Shown one piece after another: positions 4,949 through 16,736 of a stretch of DNA of 64,000 nt. The notes beneath the pieces are model-generated. The model was not told the DNA's origin, searched no databases, and saw only the letters and a list, made by a program, of their open reading frames with translations. Both the position numbers and the translations under genes were made by a program. The stretch's first letter is position 1. Each line of letters opens with the position of its first letter. The DNA is taken from contig NZ_SJRX01000003.1 of NCBI RefSeq assembly GCF_004352845.1, positions 62,001 to 126,000 of the forward strand. The letters run 5' to 3'. This DNA comes from Luteimonas terricola (GTDB taxonomy: Bacteria > Pseudomonadota > Gammaproteobacteria > Xanthomonadales > Xanthomonadaceae).

Positions 4949-4977
4949 TTTCATAGCATACATTACATAGTATGAAA
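4949..4977. promoter_or_regulatory. Inverted repeat between kfrA-like gene and integrase
   Basis: TTTCATA at 4949-4955 is mirrored by TATGAAA at 4971-4977, with further ATAG/TATG echoes between. The right arm overlaps the integrase ATG at 4972, so a bound protein would block its translation start and promoter. The AT-rich stretch around it can serve both divergent genes. It is a candidate KfrA-type autorepressor operator, inferred from position. Confidence 0.4.
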
Positions 4978-6051
4978 CGAAATAACACATTACCGACAAC
5001 AGCAGAGACGGTCACCAGCCTGGTACTGCCAGAACAACTTGCCCAGCAAGCTGCCGATGCCGTGCGCGAACTACTCGCTGAAGCGGCCGCCGCTAACACG
5101 ACGCGCAGTTACGCAACCGCTCTGCGCTATTGGGCGGGCTGGCATCAAGGCCGTTATGGGGTCGAATTGGCGCTGCCTGTCAGTGAGGCCGTGATGATCC
5201 AGTTCCTGGTCGACCACATCCAGCGCAAAGGCAAGACCGGGCTGGTTAGCGAATTGCCGCCAGCGCTGGACCAGGCTTTGGTGTCGGCTGGCCTCAAGGC
5301 CAAGGTCGGGCCGCTCAAGCTCTCGACCGTGGTCCAGCGGGTAGCCGTACTCTCGACCGCCCATAAGCTCAAGCGGCTGCCGAACCCCTGCGAACTGCCC
5401 ACTGTCAGGACGCTTCTCAGCCGAGCTCGGCGTGCCTCGGTCAAACGCGGCGAGCGCCCCACCAAGAAGACAGCCATCACTCGGGCCGAGCTGGAAGCCA
5501 TGCTGGCCACCTGTGATGACAGCCTGGAAGGCCTGCGTGACCGTGCCCTGCTCTGCTTTGGGTTCGCCAGCGGCGGACGACGGCGCAGCGAGATTGCAGC
5601 AGCCGACATGCGAGACCTGCGCAAGGTGGGCGACGACGGCTACATCTATCGTCTGGAGTACTCGAAGACTCAGCAGGCCGGGGTGAAGGCGGATTCGACA
5701 CCGGACAAGCCGATCCTGGGGCGCAGTGCTGAGGCACTGGCCGCTTGGCTGGGCGCTGCGGGGATAGATGAGGGGGCGATCTTCCGACGTATCTGGAAGG
5801 GGCGGATCGGCCCTGCCCTCCTCCCGGGCTCGGTGGCCATGATCGTGAAGCGGCGCACTAAACTAGCGGGGTTGGAGGGGGATTTCGGGGCTCACAGTCT
5901 AAGATCGGGATTCGTTACCGAAGCTGGCAAGCAAGGGGTGCCGCTACCAGCGGTGATGGCAATGACCGAGCACCGCTCCGTGGCGAGCGTGATCGGGTAC
6001 TTCCAGTCTGGGCAGGCCGAGGATAACCCAGCTGCACGGTTGCTCAGGTGA
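4972..6051 (+). CDS. Tyrosine recombinase (site-specific integrase)
   Basis: The 359-residue protein has an N-terminal SAM-like/core-binding region (residues 25-155) and a catalytic domain with the family residues: Arg205 (GGRRRSE), Lys232 (EYSKTQ), His308 and Arg311 (HSLRSGF), His334 (TEHRS) and the nucleophile Tyr343 (IGYFQSG). All catalytic residues are present, so it should be active. It is divergent from the KfrA-like gene and precedes the restriction operon, and it is the likely mobility gene of the defence island. An attachment site could not be located. It is not one of the housekeeping XerC/XerD proteins, judged by its length and N-terminus. Confidence 0.9.
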   Translation: MKRNNTLPTTAETVTSLVLPEQLAQQAADAVRELLAEAAAANTTRSYATALRYWAGWHQGRYGVELALPVSEAVMIQFLVDHIQRKGKTGLVSELPPALDQALVSAGLKAKVGPLKLSTVVQRVAVLSTAHKLKRLPNPCELPTVRTLLSRARRASVKRGERPTKKTAITRAELEAMLATCDDSLEGLRDRALLCFGFASGGRRRSEIAAADMRDLRKVGDDGYIYRLEYSKTQQAGVKADSTPDKPILGRSAEALAAWLGAAGIDEGAIFRRIWKGRIGPALLPGSVAMIVKRRTKLAGLEGDFGAHSLRSGFVTEAGKQGVPLPAVMAMTEHRSVASVIGYFQSGQAEDNPAARLLR

Positions 6052-6059
6052 GCCCATTT

Positions 6060-6071
6060 GGGGGGGGGGGG
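6060..6071 (+). repeat. 12-G homopolymer upstream of hsdR
   Basis: A run of twelve G lies eight bases after the integrase stop and 45 bases before the hsdR start codon. Runs of this length change length by slipped-strand mispairing, and when placed upstream of a restriction gene they can vary expression. The run may also be hard to sequence, so its exact length is uncertain. Confidence 0.7.
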
Positions 6072-6116
6072 AGCTATCAGAAGACTTAGCGGACCGTTGA
6101 GCCGGGAGAGACATGT

Positions 6117-8654
6117 TTGAACCAGAAAGAAGCCACCGCTCGCATCAAAATCAACAAGCTGCTTGAAGCAGCCGGTTGGCGCTTCTTCCCCGAAGGTACT
6201 TCGCCGGCGAACATCCGCCTCGAACCGTCGGTAGCAATCAAGCCCACAGACATCGAAGCCCTCGGCAGCAACTTCGAGAAGCTTGTGAGGGGCTTCGTGG
6301 ATTTCCTCTTGCTCGATACCCGCGGCTTCCCCTTGATCGTTCTCGAGGCCAAAGCAGAGGACAAGGACCCACTCATCGGAAAGGAACAAGCCAGAAAGTA
6401 CGCGCGCTCGCAGAACTGTCGATTCGTCATCCTGTCGAACGGAAACCTGCATTACTTCTGGGACCTCGACCGCGGCAGTCCCTACGTCATCACGACTTTC
6501 CCGACGCCAGAATCGGTCCAAGGGTATAAGGATGTCGCCCCCGACTCCCAAAGAGTCATCGACGAAAGGGTTGAGGCAGATTACATCGCCCTCACACAAC
6601 GCCCCACCTACGCCACTGAGGCGGCATGGAAGAACGAGGCGGAGCGATCCGACTTCATCCGCGACAACAAGCTCCGATTCCTGCGTCCCTATCAGCTGAA
6701 GGCGCTGCATCAGTTGCAGGCGGCTGTGCGCGAGGGCAAAGACCGCTTCCTGTTCGAGATGGCGACAGGCACCGGCAAGACCTTGACCGCGGCGGCTGTG
6801 ATCAAGCTGTTCCTGCGATCCCGCAATGCGCGACGTGTGCTCTTCCTGGTCGACCGTCTCGAATTGGAGGATCAGGCGAAGAAGGCCTTCGCCGCCTACC
6901 TGTCAGCCGACTTCCAGACCGTGGTCTACAAGGAGAACCGGGACGACTGGCGGCGCGCCGAGATTGTGGTGACGACGGTCCAGTCCCTCCAGTTCAACAA
7001 CAAGTATCAGCGCCTCTTCTCACCGACCGACTTCGACCTGGTGATCTCCGACGAAGCCCATCGCTCGATCGGCGGCAACGCGCGGGCGGTGTTCGACTAC
7101 TTCATCGGCTACAAGCTGGGTCTCACCGCCACCCCACGCGACTACTTGCGCCGATTCGATGCAACCAGGCCCACGACGCGCGACCCGCGCGAGTCCGAGC
7201 GGCGCTTGCTACTCGACACCTACCGCACCTTCGGCTGCGAAGGTGGCCAGCCCACCTTCCGCTATTCTCTGCTCGACGGCGTCAAGGACGGCTATCTGGT
7301 CAACCCGACGGTGGTCGATGCCCGCACCGACATCACCACGGCGTTGCTTTCCGAGGAAGGATTCATCGTGGCCTTCACCGACGACACCGGAGACGACCAA
7401 CAGGAGACCTACAAGCAGCGCGAGTTCGAAAAGCGCTTCTTCTCGGAGGCCACCAATGCGCTGTTCTGCAAGACCTTCCTGGAGAATGCCCTACGAGACC
7501 CTGTCAGCGGCGAGATCGGCAAGTCCATCGTCTTCGCAGTCAGTCAGCAGCATGCCGCGAAGCTGGCCCAGCTCTTCAATCTGATGGCCGATCGGATGTT
7601 TCCAGGCAAGTACCAGTCCGATTTCGCCGTCCAGGTCACCTCGCAGATCCCTGATGCCCAGCAGTTCTCGATCAACTTCGCCAATAACAACCTACTCGGC
7701 TCCGGTAACTTCATCGCCGACTACAAGACCAGCAAGGCCCGCGTATGCGTGACCGTCGGCATGATGACCACGGGCTACGACTGCACCGACATCCTGAACC
7801 TCGGCCTGTTTCGACCGATCTTTTCCCCGACCGACTTTATCCAGATCAAAGGGCGCGGCACCCGCAAGCACGACTTTCGCGAGCAGTTGTTCGACGTGTC
7901 GCGGCGGGACGACCTCGCCGAGCCGCAGAAAACCGCCTTCAAGCTGTTCGACTTCTTCGCCAACTGCGAATACTTCGAGACCGAGTTCAACTACGACGAG
8001 GTGCTCAAGCTCCCCAAGCCTGCCTCAAACAAAGGCGAAGGACCCGTTCAACCTCCTCCTCCGCCGGGAGGTCAGTACGAGCACCTCGGCGCCGACATCC
8101 TGGCCTCGATCCGCGTCGAGGAGATCACGACCGAGGGGATGCGAATCGACCGCATGTTCTTCGAGCGCTTCGGAGAGACCGTGCGCGAGAACCCGGTGAT
8201 CGCTGAGGCGGTCGAAGCTGGCCAATGGGACCGCGTCATCGATTACGTGAACCGTGAGGTCTTCGACAAGCCCGAGGAGTTCTACTCGCTCGACAAGCTG
8301 CGTAGAGCCGCAGCGGTGGATCGCCGTCTGACCTTGCGGGAGATCCTGGAGAAGATCTTCGGCCTCATCCCCCGCTTCAAGTCGCGCGACGAGCTGCTGG
8401 AGGAGGAGTTCGCCAAGTTCGTGTCTGATCGTAAGCCTGAGGAAGCTATCGAGATCTCCGCCATCAAGAGCTACTTCAAAGCCTACGCATCCAGTCCGCG
8501 CACCCGCGAGATCATCGACAGCCGGCACTACCAGGATCTTGCGACCAATCCCTTCTTCAACAGCCGCGACTTCAAGGCCGTGCCTGCACGCTACCGCCAA
8601 CTCGTTCCCGACTACATCAAGGACTACCTGCCCTTGAACCAGTTCCTGCCCTGA
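6117..8654 (+). CDS. hsdR: Type I restriction enzyme, HsdR motor/nuclease subunit
   Basis: The 845-residue protein starts at TTG 6117, six bases after GGGAGAG; an ATG at 6113 is out of frame. An N-terminal nuclease domain shows the PD-(D/E)xK pattern with Glu77-x-Lys79 (VLEAKAEDKDP). The SF2 translocase follows: ATGTGKT at 216-222, DEAH at 312-315 (SDEAHRSIGG), GLTATPRDYL, and the second RecA-like lobe with KGRGTRKHDF. The C-terminus resembles the EcoEI-type HsdR end. HsdR cleaves DNA after ATP-driven translocation, in complex with the methylase and specificity subunits encoded next. It is seven bases upstream of hsdMS, in the same operon. Confidence 0.93.
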   Translation: MNQKEATARIKINKLLEAAGWRFFPEGTSPANIRLEPSVAIKPTDIEALGSNFEKLVRGFVDFLLLDTRGFPLIVLEAKAEDKDPLIGKEQARKYARSQNCRFVILSNGNLHYFWDLDRGSPYVITTFPTPESVQGYKDVAPDSQRVIDERVEADYIALTQRPTYATEAAWKNEAERSDFIRDNKLRFLRPYQLKALHQLQAAVREGKDRFLFEMATGTGKTLTAAAVIKLFLRSRNARRVLFLVDRLELEDQAKKAFAAYLSADFQTVVYKENRDDWRRAEIVVTTVQSLQFNNKYQRLFSPTDFDLVISDEAHRSIGGNARAVFDYFIGYKLGLTATPRDYLRRFDATRPTTRDPRESERRLLLDTYRTFGCEGGQPTFRYSLLDGVKDGYLVNPTVVDARTDITTALLSEEGFIVAFTDDTGDDQQETYKQREFEKRFFSEATNALFCKTFLENALRDPVSGEIGKSIVFAVSQQHAAKLAQLFNLMADRMFPGKYQSDFAVQVTSQIPDAQQFSINFANNNLLGSGNFIADYKTSKARVCVTVGMMTTGYDCTDILNLGLFRPIFSPTDFIQIKGRGTRKHDFREQLFDVSRRDDLAEPQKTAFKLFDFFANCEYFETEFNYDEVLKLPKPASNKGEGPVQPPPPPGGQYEHLGADILASIRVEEITTEGMRIDRMFFERFGETVRENPVIAEAVEAGQWDRVIDYVNREVFDKPEEFYSLDKLRRAAAVDRRLTLREILEKIFGLIPRFKSRDELLEEEFAKFVSDRKPEEAIEISAIKSYFKAYASSPRTREIIDSRHYQDLATNPFFNSRDFKAVPARYRQLVPDYIKDYLPLNQFLP

Positions 8655-8661
8655 GACCGAC

Positions 8662-11184
8662 ATGCTGGATACCGACACCAAGCGCCGCATCGATACCGCC
8701 CGCGACATCCTCGTGGGCAAGGTGCCTGACCCCAAGAGCCAGGTCGAGCAGATCACGATCGCGCTGATCTACAAGTTCATGGACGACATGGACGCCGAAG
8801 CCGAGGAGTTTGGCGGCCGGCGGAAGTTCTTTGCCGGCGACTACGCGCGCTACGGCTGGGCCAAGCTGATGCGCTCGGGTTTGGGTGGCCACGAGACGCT
8901 GAACCTGTACGCCGAGGCCATCGGCAAGATGCCGGAGAACCCAGGAATCCCGGCGCTGTTCCGCGACATCTTCAAGAATGCCTACCTGCCCTACCGTGAT
9001 CCGGAGACGCTGCGAGCCTTCCTGAAGATCATCGACGAGTTCGAGTACGACCATTCCGAACGGTTGGGCGATGCCTTTGAGTACCTGCTTTCCGTGCTCG
9101 GCAGCCAGGGCGATGCCGGTCAGTTCCGTACCCCGCGCCACATCATCGACTTCGTGGTCGCGATCCTAGGCCCGAAGAAGACCGAGACGGTGCTCGACCC
9201 CGCCTGCGGCACCGCGGGCTTCCTGATCTCATCGTTCAAGCACATCCTCAAGGCCAACGTCGATGCAGACGGCAACAGCACGTTGACCCCGGACGAGAGC
9301 GGGCGCCTCGCAGCCAACTTCAAGGGCTATGACATCTCGCCGGACATGGTGCGGCTGTCGCTGGTGAACCTGTACCTTCACGGCTTCACCGACCCCCACA
9401 TCTTCGAGTACGACACTCTCACCAGCCAGGACCGCTGGAACGAGTACGCCGACGTCATCCTCGCCAATCCGCCCTTCATGTCGCCGAAGGGCGGCATCAA
9501 GCCGCACAACCGCTTCGGCGTGCAGAGCAAACGCAGCGAGGTGCTGTTCGTCGACTACATCGCCGAACACCTCACTCCCAACGGGCGAGCCGGCATCATC
9601 GTGCCCGAGGGCATCATCTTCCAGAGTCAGACGGCCTACCGGCAACTGCGCAGGATGTTGGTCGAGGACTATCTCGTGGCCGTGGTGTCGCTGCCAGCGG
9701 GCGTGTTCAATCCCTACTCCGGCGTCAAGACCTCGATCCTGATCCTCGACAAGGCGCTGGCGAAGCAGTCACACAGCGTTGCATTCTTCAAGATTGAGAA
9801 CGATGGATTCGGATTGGGTTCCCAGCGCCGTCCGATTCAGAAGGACGACCTGCCCCAAGCGCAAGCCGAGATCACCGAATTTCTGCGGCGGCTGCGCGCA
9901 CGGGAGTCGGTGGAGGAGCTTCAACCGACGCTGGGAATGGTGGTGCCGAAAGCAAGGATCGCGGAAAATGAGGACTACAACCTCAGTGGGGAGCGGTATC
10001 GGGCCAGTGCGGCGAGTAACCATACGTTCCCGCTCGTGTCTCTAGGTGACACCAGCCTGTTTCGGGTCGAGAGCGGCGGCACTCCGAAGTCAGACATCGA
10101 GGAGTATTGGGGTGGCGGGATTCCGTGGGCGACGCTTGTGGACCTGCCTTCATCCGATTTCATTACCCAGATCACATCGACGCAGCGAACGATTTCCGAC
10201 AGGGGACTTCGTGAGTCTTCGGCCAAGCTGCTACCGACCAACTCCGTCATCGTCTCGACCCGCGCAACCATCGGTCGCATTGCGATCAACCGTGTGCCGA
10301 TGGCGACGAACCAAGGCTTCAAGAGCGTTGTGATCGAGGACGAACAGCGCGCGGTCGCCGAGTACGTCGCGTTGGCGCTCACCAAGCTGGTGCCAACCAT
10401 GCAGTCATGGGCAACTGGAGGGACTTTCGCTGAGCTCTCGAAGTCCAAGTTCTGCGAGCTTGAGATTCCCCTACCGCCACTGGAAGTGCAGAAGGAAATC
10501 GTGGCGGAGATCGATGGCTACCGGAAGGTCATCGACGGTGCCCGTGCCATCCTCGACAACTACCGCCCCCGCATCCCCATCCAACCGGAATGGCCGACGG
10601 TGGAGATCGGCGAGGTATGCACGCTTCTGAATGGTCGCGCCTTTAAACCCTCAGACTGGGAGAAGGCGGAGAGCGGCGGGTTGCCGATCGTGAGGATTCA
10701 GAACCTCAACAATCCTACCGCTGAGTTCAACTACTTCACGGGCGAAGTGTCCCCTCGACATATCGTCGAGCCTGGAGAACTCCTGTTCTCCTGGTCAGGG
10801 TCGCGCGGAACCTCCTTCGGTGCCCATGTCTGGCCCGGACCAAGGGCGGTTCTCAACCAGCACATATTCAAGGTCGAGTTTCCGCCAGACCGCGCCAACA
10901 GGACCTTCCTGCTTCATGCCCTGAACGGCGCCGTTGCGGAGGTAGAGGAAAACCTCCATGGCGGAGTCGGCCTTGTGCACATAACGAAGGGCAACCTTGA
11001 GCGGATCAAGATTCCACTCCCTGTGCTGCCGGAACAGAACGCCGTCGCCGCCGAGATGGAAGCCGAGCATGCCCTTGTCGCCGCCAACCGCAAGTTGGTC
11101 GCCCGCTTCGAGAAGAAGATTCACGCCACCCTCGCCCACATCTGGGGCGGGGCGCCCATCACACTCGCCAATCAGGAGGCATAG
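8662..11184 (+). CDS. hsdM: Type I restriction-modification HsdM-HsdS fusion
   Basis: The 840-residue chain joins two subunits that are usually separate. Residues 1-430 are an N6-adenine methylase: helical HsdM_N start, SAM-binding DPACGTAG at 179-186 and catalytic NPPF at 269-272. From about 450 two target-recognition domains follow (GGTPKSDIEEYWGGGIPW, then GRAFKPSDWEKAESGGLPIV), each closed by a conserved helix (PLPPLEVQKEIVAEIDGYRKVI; PLPVLPEQNAVAAEME). Two TRDs imply a bipartite recognition sequence. No separate hsdS exists between hsdR and the next gene, which supports a real fusion. There is no sign of a frameshift at the junction. Confidence 0.9.
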   Translation: MLDTDTKRRIDTARDILVGKVPDPKSQVEQITIALIYKFMDDMDAEAEEFGGRRKFFAGDYARYGWAKLMRSGLGGHETLNLYAEAIGKMPENPGIPALFRDIFKNAYLPYRDPETLRAFLKIIDEFEYDHSERLGDAFEYLLSVLGSQGDAGQFRTPRHIIDFVVAILGPKKTETVLDPACGTAGFLISSFKHILKANVDADGNSTLTPDESGRLAANFKGYDISPDMVRLSLVNLYLHGFTDPHIFEYDTLTSQDRWNEYADVILANPPFMSPKGGIKPHNRFGVQSKRSEVLFVDYIAEHLTPNGRAGIIVPEGIIFQSQTAYRQLRRMLVEDYLVAVVSLPAGVFNPYSGVKTSILILDKALAKQSHSVAFFKIENDGFGLGSQRRPIQKDDLPQAQAEITEFLRRLRARESVEELQPTLGMVVPKARIAENEDYNLSGERYRASAASNHTFPLVSLGDTSLFRVESGGTPKSDIEEYWGGGIPWATLVDLPSSDFITQITSTQRTISDRGLRESSAKLLPTNSVIVSTRATIGRIAINRVPMATNQGFKSVVIEDEQRAVAEYVALALTKLVPTMQSWATGGTFAELSKSKFCELEIPLPPLEVQKEIVAEIDGYRKVIDGARAILDNYRPRIPIQPEWPTVEIGEVCTLLNGRAFKPSDWEKAESGGLPIVRIQNLNNPTAEFNYFTGEVSPRHIVEPGELLFSWSGSRGTSFGAHVWPGPRAVLNQHIFKVEFPPDRANRTFLLHALNGAVAEVEENLHGGVGLVHITKGNLERIKIPLPVLPEQNAVAAEMEAEHALVAANRKLVARFEKKIHATLAHIWGGAPITLANQEA

Positions 11185-11186
11185 TC

Positions 11187-12233
11187 ATGGCAGTCTGGTT
11201 GGTTCGCGCTGGGGGGCATGGGGAGTTCCAGGACAAGTTCATCAGCGAAGGACGCGTTTACGTGACCTGGGATGGCCTGGACGTCGATCTCTCCAGGCTG
11301 CGTGGCCGCGATGCATTGATCGCTGCGATGGAAGAGCGCTACCCCGGCAGCAAGCCCAAGAGTCTGCTCAACCAAGCCAGTCAGATCTGGCCCTTCGCGC
11401 ACGAGATGAAGAAGGGCGACTGGATCGTGCTGCCGCTGAAGCACCAGCGCGCCATACAGATTGGTGAACTGACCGGAGACTACGCCTTCGAGCCTGACGG
11501 CCCTGATCCGTTCTTCCACTGGCGCCCGGTGAAGTGGATCGGCGAAGCCATTCCGCGCAGCCACTTCGGCAAGGACCTGCTCAACACGTTCGGCGCCTTT
11601 ATGACCATCTGCCGCGTTCAGAAGAACGATGCCGAAGCGCGGTTGAAGGCAATGCGCAAAAACAGCTGGAAGCCGGAATCCGGCACCCAGGCCGTGGCTG
11701 CCCTCACCCCATTACCCGACAGTGTTGAGCCGGACGCAGGAGCCGAAGTCGACCTGGAAGAGCGCGCACGCGACGGCATCGTTCGCTTGATCCTCAGCCG
11801 CTTCAAGGGCGAAGGACTGGAGCGCCTGGTGGAGGGCATCTTGCGCGCGCAGGGTTACACCACGTGGCGAAGCGGCGGCAGCAGCGATGGCGGCGCAGAC
11901 ATCCTCGCCGGTGCCGGGCCACTCGGCTTCGGCTCGCCACGGTTGGTGGTGGAGGTCAAGTCTGGCGACAGTCCCATCGACCGACCCACGGTCGACAAGC
12001 TGCTCGGTTCGGTGACCAAGTTCGGTGCCAACGAAGGGCTGTTCGTCTCCTGGAGCGGCTTCAAGAACAACGTACAGAAGGAGTTGGCGAGCAGCTTCTT
12101 CCGCGTCCGGATGTGGTCCCAGACCGAATTACTCGATGCCCTCTACGAAGTCTACGATCGCCTCGATCCGGACCTTCGTGCGGAACTCCCGCTGAAGCGG
12201 ATCTGGGCCGTAGCGCTACCGGACGAGGAATGA
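11187..12233 (+). CDS. Mrr-family restriction endonuclease-like protein
   Basis: Residues 1-165 form an N-terminal module common in Mrr-like proteins (WLVRAGGHGEFQDKF, then KKGDWIVLPLK). The C-terminal nuclease core begins near 207 (FKGEGLERLVEGILRAQGY) and has Asp238 (DGGADIL) and Glu256-x-Lys258 (VVEVKSG), the PD-(D/E)xK residues of Mrr enzymes. Mrr-type nucleases cut modified DNA. Here the gene sits two bases after hsdMS and before the HEPN-like gene, so it belongs to the restriction operon and probably adds a second, modification-dependent barrier; that combined role is inference. Confidence 0.85.
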   Translation: MAVWLVRAGGHGEFQDKFISEGRVYVTWDGLDVDLSRLRGRDALIAAMEERYPGSKPKSLLNQASQIWPFAHEMKKGDWIVLPLKHQRAIQIGELTGDYAFEPDGPDPFFHWRPVKWIGEAIPRSHFGKDLLNTFGAFMTICRVQKNDAEARLKAMRKNSWKPESGTQAVAALTPLPDSVEPDAGAEVDLEERARDGIVRLILSRFKGEGLERLVEGILRAQGYTTWRSGGSSDGGADILAGAGPLGFGSPRLVVEVKSGDSPIDRPTVDKLLGSVTKFGANEGLFVSWSGFKNNVQKELASSFFRVRMWSQTELLDALYEVYDRLDPDLRAELPLKRIWAVALPDEE

Positions 12234-12234
12234 C

Positions 12235-12960
12235 ATGGAAGAGGCCGCCGAACTCGCGGACTACCTCCCGCTCTCCTTCAGGAGCCCGCAGGAGCAGGAG
12301 TACGTCGCCTTCCTCTGGGACGCCTTCCAGACGAACTATACGCACGGCAAATACCAGTTCGCCTTCCTCGCCTACCACATGCTGGCGATGAGCTTCGTGT
12401 ACTTCAACATCTGGCAGATCAAGAACGCCGAGCCCGTCGACTTCGCGAAGGGCCTGATCGGCTTTGGCAAGGATGTCGAGAAGAACATGATGGAGGCCAC
12501 ATCGCCCTTCACCTTCAGCAAGGTCAATGAGCGCACCATCCTACGCTTTCTCAAGCTGATCGCCTGCGACAACGGCAAGATCGGAACTTACAGCAAGCTG
12601 GTGGACGATCGCAACGAAACGGCACATCCGAACGGCAACATCTTTTTCAGTACGCAGGCTTCTCTCGATGCCAAGATCAGGGAGATCTTGCGAGTAGTGA
12701 GCGAGATACAAGACCACTCAACGCCGATCATCGAGCGATGCTACAAGGATTTCTTGGCTAGCAACGCGGATCCAGAGGAGCGCGAGTATCCAGAGCCAGC
12801 AGATCAGATACGAGAGGTCTTGGTTCACGCCAACTACATGGCGCAGAAAGACATGGAGATCTGCATGCGAACTGACATCAGTATGCTCATCGAAGGCTCT
12901 CATGCGGAACAGATTTCCGCCATGCACGAGGATGTGATTGCAATCTACGGACATGACTGA
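12235..12960 (+). CDS. HEPN-like protein of the restriction operon, uncharacterised
   Basis: The 241-residue, mainly helical and soluble protein starts one base after the Mrr stop, so translation is coupled. I do not recognise a named family. It contains DDRNETAHP, with Arg126-x4-His131, which fits the R-x4-6-H active-site motif of HEPN RNases found in abortive-infection and toxin systems. A hydrophobic helix around residues 43-62 could be a HEPN core helix rather than a membrane span. Position suggests a defence role, perhaps as RNase effector or partner of the R-M complex. The motif is short and could be coincidental. Confidence 0.6.
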   Translation: MEEAAELADYLPLSFRSPQEQEYVAFLWDAFQTNYTHGKYQFAFLAYHMLAMSFVYFNIWQIKNAEPVDFAKGLIGFGKDVEKNMMEATSPFTFSKVNERTILRFLKLIACDNGKIGTYSKLVDDRNETAHPNGNIFFSTQASLDAKIREILRVVSEIQDHSTPIIERCYKDFLASNADPEEREYPEPADQIREVLVHANYMAQKDMEICMRTDISMLIEGSHAEQISAMHEDVIAIYGHD

Positions 12961-13055: not shown

Positions 13056-13200
13056 TTACCCCAAAGTCCGCTTCCAGCCAGAAGTGGGCATTCTCAATGC
13101 CGACTTGGCCGCCCCTAACCTGTTCGCTGACGCTCGCTTGAACTTGATAGGACTGGCCTATAGCCTGTGAAGACATGCGACGAGAAGGGATACTCCGCCT

Positions 13201-15048
13201 GTGTCTGCTGATGCCATCACCTATTGTCTAGAGCAGCTCTCGGACTACAGGCAGTTCGAGCGGCTGTGCTCCGCACTGCTCGCCAGCGCAGGCTATTCAA
13301 CAATCGATCCCTTGGGCGGTACCGGAGACGAAGGACGCGACGCAATCATCCGTACCGACTCCGCGGGACGCACAATTTGTTTTGCATACACCGTGCGCAC
13401 CGACTGGCGTATCAAGCTGCGCAGTGACTGCAAACGCGTCAGAGAAGTAGAACATAAGCCTGATGTCTTCGTGTTTGCCTGCACTGAAGCCATCGCCGCT
13501 AGAGACAAGGACGCGGCAGTGAAGATGGTTAAGGACGATTTCGGCTGGAGACTCGACCTGTTCGATCTTGAGCGACTTCGCGTCCAGCTTTCCGGGCCAC
13601 AGCGTCATCTACTCGCGCAGCACCCGTCCATCTTCGTGCCGCCGTTCTTCCCGCAGCGAGGCGGCGAATCGATCGCTGACAGCCACGATACGATCCTCAT
13701 CGATCACGTCACTTCCGACCATGCGATCGCCGCATGGCTTTCCAGGCGACTATCCCTGTCAGGCTTTCGCACCTGGTGTAGAGGCACGGCACCATTGGCC
13801 GGCGAAGACGCAGACGAGACGGTGAGGACGTTGATTGCACACCGGGCCAATCGTTACCTGCCGATCCTCTCAAGCGCGAGCCTGGCCGACCCCCTGTTTC
13901 TTGAACGCTGCGCGATCGCGACCGCGCGCAACCGAGACCTCGTGATTCCCTGCAAGGGGATCATTTCGGAGGATTGGACCTTGCCCTCGCGCCTGACCAA
14001 GCTGGTCGCGGCCGACTTCTCCTCGTCATGGCGTGAGGGTCTGAACGCGGTGCTCGACGCCTTGTCCTCGTCCGGCATCCGACCTTCGCTCGCTGCTGAG
14101 CGCGGCGCGCAGATCGCGTTGCGCGACTTCCTGCCATCGCAGGTGACCATCGCCAAACCCGAACCGGTCTTCGCCAATGTCTTCGCCATGACCGTGCCCA
14201 CCAGCATGCTCGACATCAGGGTGCCGTATGCGCTGACCATGGCCGAGCGCTACGAGTTGTCAAGGAAGTGGGCGTTCTACGTCGCCAACGAACGCACGCT
14301 GATCGCCTTCGACCTCCCTCCTTCCGGCTCATGTCTCGGCGACGTGAGCGGCCGCTATTCGGAGTTCTCCTGGCGTGATGCCGAGCACACACACGGACAT
14401 CTCACAATCAACGTCGCCAAATTCCTGTTGCGTCGCAGCCTGGATGTCGCCTGTGAAGCCAAAGGGCTGGTGTTCTGTCACGACCGCAAGGGATATCACT
14501 TCACCCGCGATGGCGAGCAAGAGTTGGCGCAGGCCATCACCCATGTTGACGGGCAGAAGACTACCGTCCAACTCACCGGAAAACGCACTAAAGGCTACGG
14601 TGAGCGCGCCTCGGAGTTCCGCTATCAGCTCGGCCCCCGATTCCGTTGCGACCAGGATAAGCAGGGACAATGGACCGCTGTCATCAGGCTTTACGTCAGG
14701 GTCACCACACTCGAAGGCGCGATGTTCGAGGGCAAGGAGATCAACCGACGCAGAAAAGTGGTGACCAAATCCTGGTGGAACAAGCAATGGCTTGCCCGTC
14801 TACTCGGCGTCGTGCAAGGACTTGAGACCCATCCGGGCAAGGTGACGGTCGGCAATGGCCACAGAGCCGTGACAATGACCACGGCGCCCATGCGATGGGA
14901 GTGTCCGGTCGGTCTGGATGTGTCTGCATTAACCGATGCATCGGAGATCGGGCAGGAGATGGCGCTGTATCGCGCGCACCAGGATGACGGAGACGATACA
15001 GGCGATGCCGGCATGCCTACCCCCACCGCCATATTGACGACACCATGA
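13201..15048 (+). CDS. Mrr-TIR-APAZ partner of a short prokaryotic Argonaute
   Basis: The 615-residue protein starts at GTG 13201 (SADAITYCLEQL). Residues 10-130 resemble an Mrr/RecB-type nuclease fold (RQFERLCSALLASAGYSTID, GDEGRDA), but the expected E-x-K strand reads FAYTVRT, so that site may be degenerate. Residues 162-290 read as a TIR domain (DTILIDHVTSD, AAWLSRRLSLSGFRTWC, PILSSASLADPLFLERC; Glu235 is the candidate catalytic residue). From about 310 comes APAZ, ending with KVVTKSWWNKQWLARLL. TIR-APAZ proteins bind short pAgo and, when it recognises invader nucleic acid, degrade NAD(P). The stop overlaps the pAgo start (ATGA), so the two are translated together. Confidence 0.85.
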   Translation: MSADAITYCLEQLSDYRQFERLCSALLASAGYSTIDPLGGTGDEGRDAIIRTDSAGRTICFAYTVRTDWRIKLRSDCKRVREVEHKPDVFVFACTEAIAARDKDAAVKMVKDDFGWRLDLFDLERLRVQLSGPQRHLLAQHPSIFVPPFFPQRGGESIADSHDTILIDHVTSDHAIAAWLSRRLSLSGFRTWCRGTAPLAGEDADETVRTLIAHRANRYLPILSSASLADPLFLERCAIATARNRDLVIPCKGIISEDWTLPSRLTKLVAADFSSSWREGLNAVLDALSSSGIRPSLAAERGAQIALRDFLPSQVTIAKPEPVFANVFAMTVPTSMLDIRVPYALTMAERYELSRKWAFYVANERTLIAFDLPPSGSCLGDVSGRYSEFSWRDAEHTHGHLTINVAKFLLRRSLDVACEAKGLVFCHDRKGYHFTRDGEQELAQAITHVDGQKTTVQLTGKRTKGYGERASEFRYQLGPRFRCDQDKQGQWTAVIRLYVRVTTLEGAMFEGKEINRRRKVVTKSWWNKQWLARLLGVVQGLETHPGKVTVGNGHRAVTMTTAPMRWECPVGLDVSALTDASEIGQEMALYRAHQDDGDDTGDAGMPTPTAILTTP

Positions 15049-16622
15049 CCGACACCTTTCATTATCTCGGCGAGCCGGCGCTCCTATTCGGAAATGGCCA
15101 GACCGCTGAAGATCCTCATGATGGACTGGCCTTGTTCGGGCCGGCCGAACCTTGCTCGCAACTGCCCCAACACGTTGTCGTGGGCACACCAGAGGGGCTG
15201 GCGCTGTGGAAGAGCTGGTGCGACGACCTCAACAGCCCAGCCGCTTGCATCGACGAGAACCGGCATCGTGCCTGGCCGCCCTACCCTAGTTTCGATGTCG
15301 CCTTCGGAACGCGCTGGCCATCGCCGATCCGCAACTATGAGGTAGATGCTCAGACGCTGTCTGAAGCCTCGCGCAAGAGCGACAAGCACGAGCGTGCCTA
15401 TGCAGTCACCGGACTGTTCATGCAGGCGATCGAGCGCACCGCCAAACTCGATGCCAAACCCGCGCTGGCGATCTGCATCGTTCCCGACGAGGTGTATGAG
15501 AATTGTCATCCCCATTCGAGCGTGGCGTTGGACGAACGCAGTGACACTCAACGCACGCGGAAGGAAAAGAGGTTTCTTGACCAAGCGCTATGCGACCGCA
15601 AGCGCGGCCAGACCAGGATGTTCGATGATGCTGACGACAATGTAGCAGCCGCGATCAGCAACATTGACGCCTATGAGCAGGCGCTTGGGCTGTCACCGGA
15701 CTTCCGGCGCCAGCTCAAGGCTCGAATGATGGCGCACGATCTGCCGGTACAAATCATTCGGGAGGCGACGCTTCGCGTAAGCGCGCAGGTGCGTAATGGC
15801 GAGAAAGGCACCAATCCGCTCTCCGACCGCCTTTGGAATTTCAGCACCGCGCTGTACTACAAGTGTGGCGCCAAGCCTTGGAAAACGCCTTGGGCACGCG
15901 AGGGCGTGTGTTACGTCGGGCTCGCATACAAGATCACCCAAGACGGACGCCAGGCCTGTTGCGCCGCCCAGTTGTTCCTCGACAGCGGCGATGGCGTAGT
16001 GTTCGTCGGCGAATTCGGTCCTTGGTACTCCAAGGAGCGCGGCGAATTCCACTTGCCGCCTGAGAAGGCCGAAGCGCTGCTGCGCGGCACGATCGCCACT
16101 TACACCCAGGAACACGGACTACCGCTCAAGGAAATCTTCCTGCATGCTCATTCAGGGATCGATGCCGACGAGTATCAAGGATTCCTCAATGCCTGTCCGC
16201 CGGGGGTTAAGCTCACCGCGATCCGCGTGAGGCAGGATTCGCAGGGACTGCGCTTGTATCGTTATGACGCGCATCCCGATGCCACCAAGCGCGGCCAGCA
16301 ACCAGTCCAGCGCGGCGTCTTCTGGCAACGCTCTGCGAACCATGGCTTGCTATTCACCAACGGCTTTAAGGCCAGGATTGCGACCTACGATGGGTTCGAG
16401 GTTCCGGTGCCCCTGGAGATCACGCTGCAGCATGGCGAGGGCGACATTCTGGAGATCGCCAAGGATATCCTTGGCCTGACCAAGCTCAACTACAACGCCT
16501 GCCAGTTGGGTGAGGGTCGGCCGATCACCATCAAGTATTCCGATCGGGTGGGCGAGATCCTATTGGCAAACCGCGGGGTCAGTCCCGACAAGTGGAAGCC
16601 GAATTTTAAGTACTACATCTAA
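15045..16622 (+). CDS. Short prokaryotic Argonaute (MID-PIWI)
   Basis: The 525-residue protein matches short pAgo in length and in lacking N and PAZ domains. The MID region lies around 140-250 (IVPDEVYENC; ARMMAHDLPVQIIREATL) and PIWI from 285 to the end (CYVGLAYK, FVGEFGPWYSKERGEFHLP, GRPITIKYSDRVGEILLANRGV). The first catalytic Asp of active PIWI is replaced (VGLA at 291-294), as in other short pAgos, so it should recognise a guide-target duplex without cutting. It ends in a hydrophobic FKYYI typical of the family. Effector function must come from the TIR partner encoded immediately upstream with a 4-base overlap. Confidence 0.9.
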   Translation: MTDTFHYLGEPALLFGNGQTAEDPHDGLALFGPAEPCSQLPQHVVVGTPEGLALWKSWCDDLNSPAACIDENRHRAWPPYPSFDVAFGTRWPSPIRNYEVDAQTLSEASRKSDKHERAYAVTGLFMQAIERTAKLDAKPALAICIVPDEVYENCHPHSSVALDERSDTQRTRKEKRFLDQALCDRKRGQTRMFDDADDNVAAAISNIDAYEQALGLSPDFRRQLKARMMAHDLPVQIIREATLRVSAQVRNGEKGTNPLSDRLWNFSTALYYKCGAKPWKTPWAREGVCYVGLAYKITQDGRQACCAAQLFLDSGDGVVFVGEFGPWYSKERGEFHLPPEKAEALLRGTIATYTQEHGLPLKEIFLHAHSGIDADEYQGFLNACPPGVKLTAIRVRQDSQGLRLYRYDAHPDATKRGQQPVQRGVFWQRSANHGLLFTNGFKARIATYDGFEVPVPLEITLQHGEGDILEIAKDILGLTKLNYNACQLGEGRPITIKYSDRVGEILLANRGVSPDKWKPNFKYYI

Positions 16623-16736
16623 CACGCAGTTCGGGCAGAGCTTTAATCAAAGCCCTGCCGCGGAGGATCTCATGGACAACTTCGCAGGATGCCTGAACGT
16701 TCAAGTGGGTCCGCCTTGGGTCGGAAGCTACCCTCT

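Follow-up and report, generated by a model that had tools for sequence, protein, structure and literature searches.

The window analysed here, i.e., a stretch of 64,000 nucleotides of the Luteimonas terricola genome (contig NZ_SJRX01000003.1, positions 62,001 to 126,000), harbors on its forward strand two open reading frames (ORFs), at 13201-15048 and 15045-16622, which overlap in an ATGA and constitute a two-gene short-Argonaute cassette. The first has a GTG start and encodes a protein of 615 amino acids (aa), referred to as the partner protein, with a restriction endonuclease (REase)-like domain, a TIR domain, and an APAZ region; the second has an ATG start and encodes a short prokaryotic Argonaute (pAgo) of 525 aa, consisting of MID and PIWI domains. 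An earlier note on this DNA, drawn from its letters alone, had described the overlapping pair and its Mrr-like, TIR, and APAZ parts, and this description is borne out by Pfam, PADLOC, and AlphaFold2 (AF2). Beyond that note, the alignments reveal that the catalytic glutamate of the TIR domain has also been lost, an arginine (Arg236) being located in its place. As judged from the sequences, both canonical catalytic centres of the partner protein are thus missing; a comparison of the two most similar loci shows its N-terminal and TIR domains to be under purifying selection, and proteins with the same domain order fall into two separate clades.

The gene pair and its domains

The partner protein shows a near full-length match to the PADLOC model PDLC02416 ('Aga_REase-TIR-PNTD1-PNTD2'), scoring 730 bits with residues 6-604 aligned to model positions 1-562 of 572. 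Its N-terminal PD-(D/E)XK-fold domain comprises residues 1-145 (13201..13635; this and all the features below lie on the forward strand), and Pfam Mrr_cat matches residues 15-58 with 24.8 bits (cut-off 21), rising to 27.5 bits when residues 1-150 are searched. The TIR domain covers about residues 162-292 (13684..14076); the Pfam TIR_2 match to residues 166-282 is marginal (27.9 bits versus a cut-off of 28), and phmmer matches to the TIR domains of SPARTA systems, the alternation of strands and helices in the AF2 model, and the structural matches all point to a TIR fold in the region (residues 162-290) where it had been predicted. The APAZ region (about residues 300-590; 14098..14970) is covered by the PNTD1-PNTD2 part of the PADLOC model and matches both SPARTA and SPARDA chains. 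When the AF2 model of the entire partner protein (built from four sequences; mean predicted local distance difference test score, pLDDT, 62.3) was compared with the PDB, the top matches were SPARTA TIR-APAZ chains (8qlp_A, E 1.4e-19), with SPARDA chains lower in the list; a search of BFVD returned no match at E ≤ 0.001.

The REase-TIR-APAZ architecture itself is not new, the nuclease-TIR-APAZ order being mentioned in Makarova 2009 and represented by a PADLOC model. A second model, PDLC02400, is labelled TIR-PNTD1-PNTD2, yet the REase-TIR-APAZ protein of S. medicae matches its positions 1-637 of 639, so that its first ~180 positions presumably correspond to an REase domain. The literature search found no functional study of the REase-TIR branch of short Argonautes.

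Three other loci group with that of the window and are referred to, together with it, as the window lineage: one in G898, a genome from the order to which the window belongs (loci L059/L093; 90% identity to the window), one in Collimonas (L002; 58%), and one in Zhongshania (L003; 45%). The gene pair is a discrete cassette. The DNA common to the window and G898 extends from 75 bp 5' of the first start codon to the second stop codon (13126..16623; blastn identity 91.2% over 3498 bp), and at E ≤ 1e-10 the window has no other match to the 18.9 kb surrounding this locus in G898. The cassette gives one match in its own genome; its G+C content is 0.60, the same as that of the upstream island, versus 0.68 in the genes just downstream.

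The pAgo (15045..16622) matches pAgo_I with 550 bits, and its closest solved relatives by sequence are the SPARTA pAgos (8qlo_B, E 5e-93; 309-316 bits against five solved SPARTA sequences). The catalytic residues of PIWI are absent: VGLA is found where active enzymes have Asp, as the earlier note had read it, and CrtAgo has LGLV. This does not point to an active slicer and is to be expected, since Ryazansky et al. 2018 (PMC6299218) describe the active site of PIWI as invariably substituted in short pAgos. The residues that the alignment assigns to the guide pocket, i.e., RK and Gln of MID and the Lys of LTKLNYN, are present in all four loci; the C-terminal residue differs among them, being Ile (window, G898), Ala (Collimonas), or Met (Zhongshania).

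Catalytic positions of the TIR and REase-like domains

In SPARTA, Glu77 of the TIR domain is reported to be catalytic for NAD(P) hydrolysis, and the E77A variant served as a control (PMC10474274; also PMC11156904). At the corresponding position of the window protein there is Arg236 (13906..13908), placed by a locally ungapped alignment to CrtSPARTA (RCAIAT versus ELAVAT) with which the multiple alignments agree, and Arg occupies this position in all four loci of the window lineage. A one-residue shift of register that would make the neighbouring Glu235 the catalytic residue was rejected, the RCAIAT/ELAVAT pairing being the one that fits best; such a shift would in any case be no rescue, since Glu235 is replaced by Ala in Zhongshania. 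In the tblastn alignment of the window to L007, a two-residue gap moves the register, and Glu235 still does not face the catalytic Glu.

The Glu77 column was compared in 30 aligned proteins. Glu is present in 17/17 TIR-APAZ proteins devoid of an REase domain and in none of the 13 REase-type proteins, of which the nine alphaproteobacterial ones have Asp (seven) or Leu (two) and the four of the window lineage have Arg. Seven further REase-less TIR domains (L101, L103, L007, L029, L074, L084, and L102) also possess Glu, for a total of 24/24. These rows are not independent, since they include sets of near or close copies (L085/L090/L092, L088/L089, L077/L080, and L008/L103). The 30-row alignments and trees exclude L007, L102, and L084 (in-frame stops or split gene), L014/L029 (pieces), L074, L101, and L103. 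Among the 12 loci compared with the window by tblastn, the short TIR of L016 also has Glu and was left uncounted for want of a demonstrated APAZ region, whereas no match was obtained with L018, L030, L043, and L048. Weak TIR-only or N-domain-only hits of the genome scans stand outside the count as well, and the first 178 residues of L064, whose ORF exceeds the homologous part, were removed. A second position behaves in a similar way: 19/19 Glu-bearing REase-less proteins have Ser, Thr, or Asn in the Ser8 column, which is occupied by Asp in 4/4 members of the window lineage and by Ile, Leu, or Val in the REase-type proteins of the alphaproteobacterial clade. No prior description of the loss of the TIR Glu was found in a literature search that did not cover subscription papers (e.g., the 2022 SPARTA paper).

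A TIR-APAZ protein of R. gallicum (L083:1265-2977) carries a different N-terminal part of about 155 aa, with no Pfam match, and keeps the TIR Glu; an N-terminal extension as such is therefore not tied to the loss of this residue.

As for the N-terminal domain, its homology to the REase domain of the alphaproteobacterial proteins is supported by hhalign (96.7%). Modelled alone by AF2 (pLDDT 71.5), it finds Avs4 as its best PDB match (E 0.009, probability 0.99; none at E ≤ 0.001), which is only suggestive of a shared fold, and the profile of the window-type domain gave no match against the PDB sequences. Similarity to the Mrr-type PD-(D/E)XK nucleases exists at the level of profile and, weakly, of fold, and the catalytic D..(E/Q)xK signature is incomplete. 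In the window protein, FAYT (residues 61-64; 13381..13392) takes the place of the (E/Q)xK of active Mrr-type nucleases; the strand reads FAY[T/S] throughout the window lineage, so that E/Q and K are lost in 4/4 loci, and the acidic residue, Asp47 (13339..13341), is kept. The FAYTV noticed in the earlier note in place of the E-x-K strand was thus read correctly, and its suggestion of a degenerate Mrr-like part is supported. In ten aligned domains of this type from bacteria and haloarchaea, six of them haloarchaeal, the invariant residues include G42, D43, D47, K72, and D76, with E20 nearly invariant; the domains of the window lineage are 52-92% identical to that of the window. On the contrary, the alphaproteobacterial REase domain is canonical, with D41, Q54, and K56 invariant in 12/12 sequences, and it is homologous to the N-terminal Mrr-type domain of an nSTAND3 NTPase (L009).

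The window-type N-terminal domain also occurs on haloarchaeal plasmids (eight records), for instance at L072, L073, and L097-L100, embedded in separate proteins of about 370-400 aa; the E/Q-x-K strand is absent in 6/6 of those aligned.

Two clades, selection, and distribution

Two phylogenetic trees of 30 rows each, one constructed on the TIR-APAZ part without the N-terminal domain and the other on the pAgo, separated the alphaproteobacterial REase clade from the window lineage, with good support for both. A single origin of all 13 REase-TIR-APAZ proteins was rejected by the approximately unbiased (AU) test (p 0.00098 with the TIR-APAZ tree and 1.8e-5 with the pAgo tree). In the pAgo tree the branches of the outgroup and of the window are long and their join was flagged; the broken pAgo of L005 was not used. 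The alphaproteobacterial clade is nested among Glu-bearing proteins, beside L062. In its nine members (L085, L086, L088-L092, L033, and L034) the D..QxK nuclease motif is intact in 9/9 cases, and the TIR Glu has become Asp in seven and Leu in two. Both traits, i.e., the presence of the N-terminal domain and the change of the Glu, require two changes each, and these coincide. Since a catalytic Glu is generally found in TIR enzymes, it is simpler to suppose that the window lineage lost Glu than that the other proteins gained it, although the root does not prove the direction.

The comparison of the two most similar loci shows that purifying selection acts on the N-terminal and TIR domains. The ratio of nonsynonymous to synonymous substitution rates (dN/dS) between the window and G898 is 0.18 for the N-terminal domain, 0.07 for TIR, 0.19 for APAZ, and 0.066 for the pAgo; the last 25 residues give 1.3, a value derived from few changes. 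The corresponding values between S. medicae and NGR234 are 0.15 (REase), 0.10 (TIR), and 0.14 (APAZ).

The window lineage is rare. Coverage of the model from REase to APAZ was observed in 1/369 genomes of the class (the window's own) and in 1/315 of a class set of 99% complete genomes (again its own), in 3/398 of the phylum (its own and two alphaproteobacterial ones), in 2/299 of the order (its own and G898), in 1/149 of the family of G625 (itself), and in 1/147 of the family of G898 (itself), these genome sets overlapping. The partner protein used as a query was found in one genome out of 61, the window's own, and a pattern-based scan of contigs of 84,980 species, able to recover close relatives only, yielded two loci. 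No record among 72,556 plasmid records covers 80% of the partner protein; plasmids do carry the alphaproteobacterial kind of REase-TIR-APAZ, which was found through its pAgo. Neither a tblastn search against phage records nor pattern-based scans of viral contigs retrieved a relative of the window lineage.

Two side observations concern SPARTA-like pairs: one, with the TIR Glu present, lies on an IMG/VR viral contig (L101:4025-6954), and those of L077 and L080, of SPARTA type, lie near a separate TIR gene, a 7-cyano-7-deazaguanine synthase gene, and a DNA lyase gene.

Upstream of the cassette, positions 4972-12960 constitute an integrase-associated defence island. It includes an integrase (4972-6051), an HsdR-like protein (6117-8654), an HsdM-HsdS fusion (8662-11184), an Mrr-type protein (11187-12233; PADLOC PDC-S02) separated from the fusion by 2 bp, and, 1 bp further on, a protein weakly matching HEPN_RiboL-PSP (12235-12960). 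When window positions 1-30000, the 18.9 kb around G898, and the flanks of L002 (only ~330 bp upstream) and L003 are compared, the four loci turn out to have no third gene in common (ORFs of at least 120 aa, E ≤ 1e-5). Only pairwise shares emerged: the window has an integrase-like ORF (28%) in common with L003, and a transposase-like ORF (23%) occurs in both G898 and L002. The Mrr-type and HEPN-like neighbours of the window have no match in the other three loci.

Possible mode of action and comparison with known systems

Since both parts of the partner protein have lost their usual catalytic residues and yet stay conserved, the system probably defends in a way different from that of the NAD-destroying systems that the window pair resembles. 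The reading to which we assign a probability of about one half is that a short pAgo built on the SPARTA chassis has given up the NAD output, the TIR domain serving as a non-catalytic assembly module and the output being delivered through the N-terminal REase-fold domain. By homology to SPARTA, the pAgo-APAZ pair would load a guide RNA and sense complementary DNA of an invader, and target binding would lead to the assembly of complexes, in which the TIR domain might be retained as a scaffold. This assembly may gather the REase-fold domains on DNA and let them carry the output, in a manner comparable to SPARDA, whose nuclease domain is described as activated by target-induced assembly (PMC12205087). 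The alphaproteobacterial version, with its canonical motif, should then cut DNA; in the window lineage the domain would most likely bind DNA or recruit some other nuclease, or else act through a non-canonical active site.

Several points weigh against this reading. The window lineage comprises four loci only, and its dN/dS values come from a single pair of them; the two clades provide two independent pairs only, for which a sign test gives p 0.5 and cannot reach significance. The Collimonas copy (L002:1-2080) is devoid of the first 27 residues, unrelated sequence preceding it at the contig start. AF2 confidence is modest for both the partner protein (62.3) and the N-terminal domain alone (71.5), and the best PDB match of the latter is weak (E 0.009). 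The assembly interfaces give little help either: Arg114 and Asn116 of the CrtSPARTA TIR interface are not conserved in the window and vary in Glu-bearing relatives too, and Gln35 and Tyr37 of the pAgo interface, aligned differently by two alignments, allow no confident placement. Lastly, Trp46, described as needed for the CrtSPARTA NADase (PMC11156904), is Asp in the window lineage; this column is not diagnostic, because Trp is absent from 8 of the 19 Glu-bearing relatives and present in only 11.

How the N-terminal domain might act can be worded more sharply, and more tentatively. One possibility, to which we give clearly less than even odds, is that neither protein has a canonical centre, the TIR domain having been demoted from NADase to scaffold upon the addition of an REase-type domain, in one of two independent cases, and that the guided complex stops invaders neither by cutting nor by NAD depletion: it would bind or clamp DNA, or recruit a nuclease of the host. 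Somewhat more doubtful is that the N-terminal domain still functions as a nuclease through a non-canonical centre, in which Glu20, Asp47, and the helix residues Lys72 and Asp76 would replace E/Q-x-K and give a SPARDA-like DNase. The invariance (near invariance for Glu20) of these residues from bacteria to haloarchaea, the identity of 52-92% within the lineage, and the dN/dS of 0.18 speak for it; nevertheless, E or Q or K of the strand is found in 0/10 domains, and Lys72 need not be catalytic, as several canonical relatives have a Lys at about the same position.

It is unlikely that the cassette is a decaying or inactive remnant. The loss of two canonical centres, its rarity, and the 5' truncation in Collimonas would fit such a fate, but dN/dS is low in both genes between the window and G898, the ORFs are intact in three of the four loci, and the guide-pocket residues are largely retained. 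Slightly less credible still is a TIR domain that cleaves NAD(P) with other residues, as in SPARTA, the N-terminal domain being an accessory: although TIR is the part of the partner protein most constrained by dN/dS (0.07) and all four members preserve the WC motif as well as a stretch of the BB-loop region, the equivalents of Glu77 and Ser8 are replaced in 4/4, and the adjacent Glu235 is not conserved. NAD depletion and a dual output are the least likely outputs for this lineage. The latter, i.e., nuclease and NADase on one chain, had been put forward in the earlier note; both folds are indeed present, but with Arg for the TIR Glu and the E/Q-x-K strand lost in 4/4 loci, and both centres kept in 0/13 REase-type proteins examined, it is very improbable.

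What changes is the expectation for an already catalogued branch of short Argonautes, in which an annotation by domain names, 'REase + TIR', suggests two weapons. If TIR does act as a scaffold, the window pair would offer a prokaryotic, RNA-guided parallel to adaptor TIR domains, and the two clades would represent an evolutionary experiment in which the effector was swapped twice.

With the Mrr/nSTAND3 and Avs-type STAND NTPases the window pair shares an N-terminal Mrr-type domain, as in L009, and Avs4 as the best fold match, but it has no NTPase and has lost the canonical residues. It resembles SPARDA in possessing a nuclease-type domain linked to APAZ, and possibly in a DNA-directed output; the characterised SPARDA nuclease, however, is described as active and as connected to APAZ through a loop, with no TIR (PMC12205087), whereas the window protein has FAYT instead of the canonical (E/Q)xK and keeps Asp47. 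The alphaproteobacterial PD-(D/E)XK-TIR-APAZ proteins (e.g., S. medicae WP_011971023.1 and S. fredii NGR234 WP_010875053.1; PDLC02400/PDLC02416) have the same domain order and have likewise lost the TIR Glu, but they form a separate clade, keep D..QxK, and have Asp or Leu instead of Arg. The window pair resembles SPARTA in the operon of an APAZ protein with a short pAgo whose PIWI is inactive, in the TIR-APAZ fold, and in the MID pocket, where RK stands for HK; it differs from SPARTA in the additional N-terminal REase-like domain, in Arg and Asp at the positions of Glu77 and Ser8, and in its separate branch in both trees.

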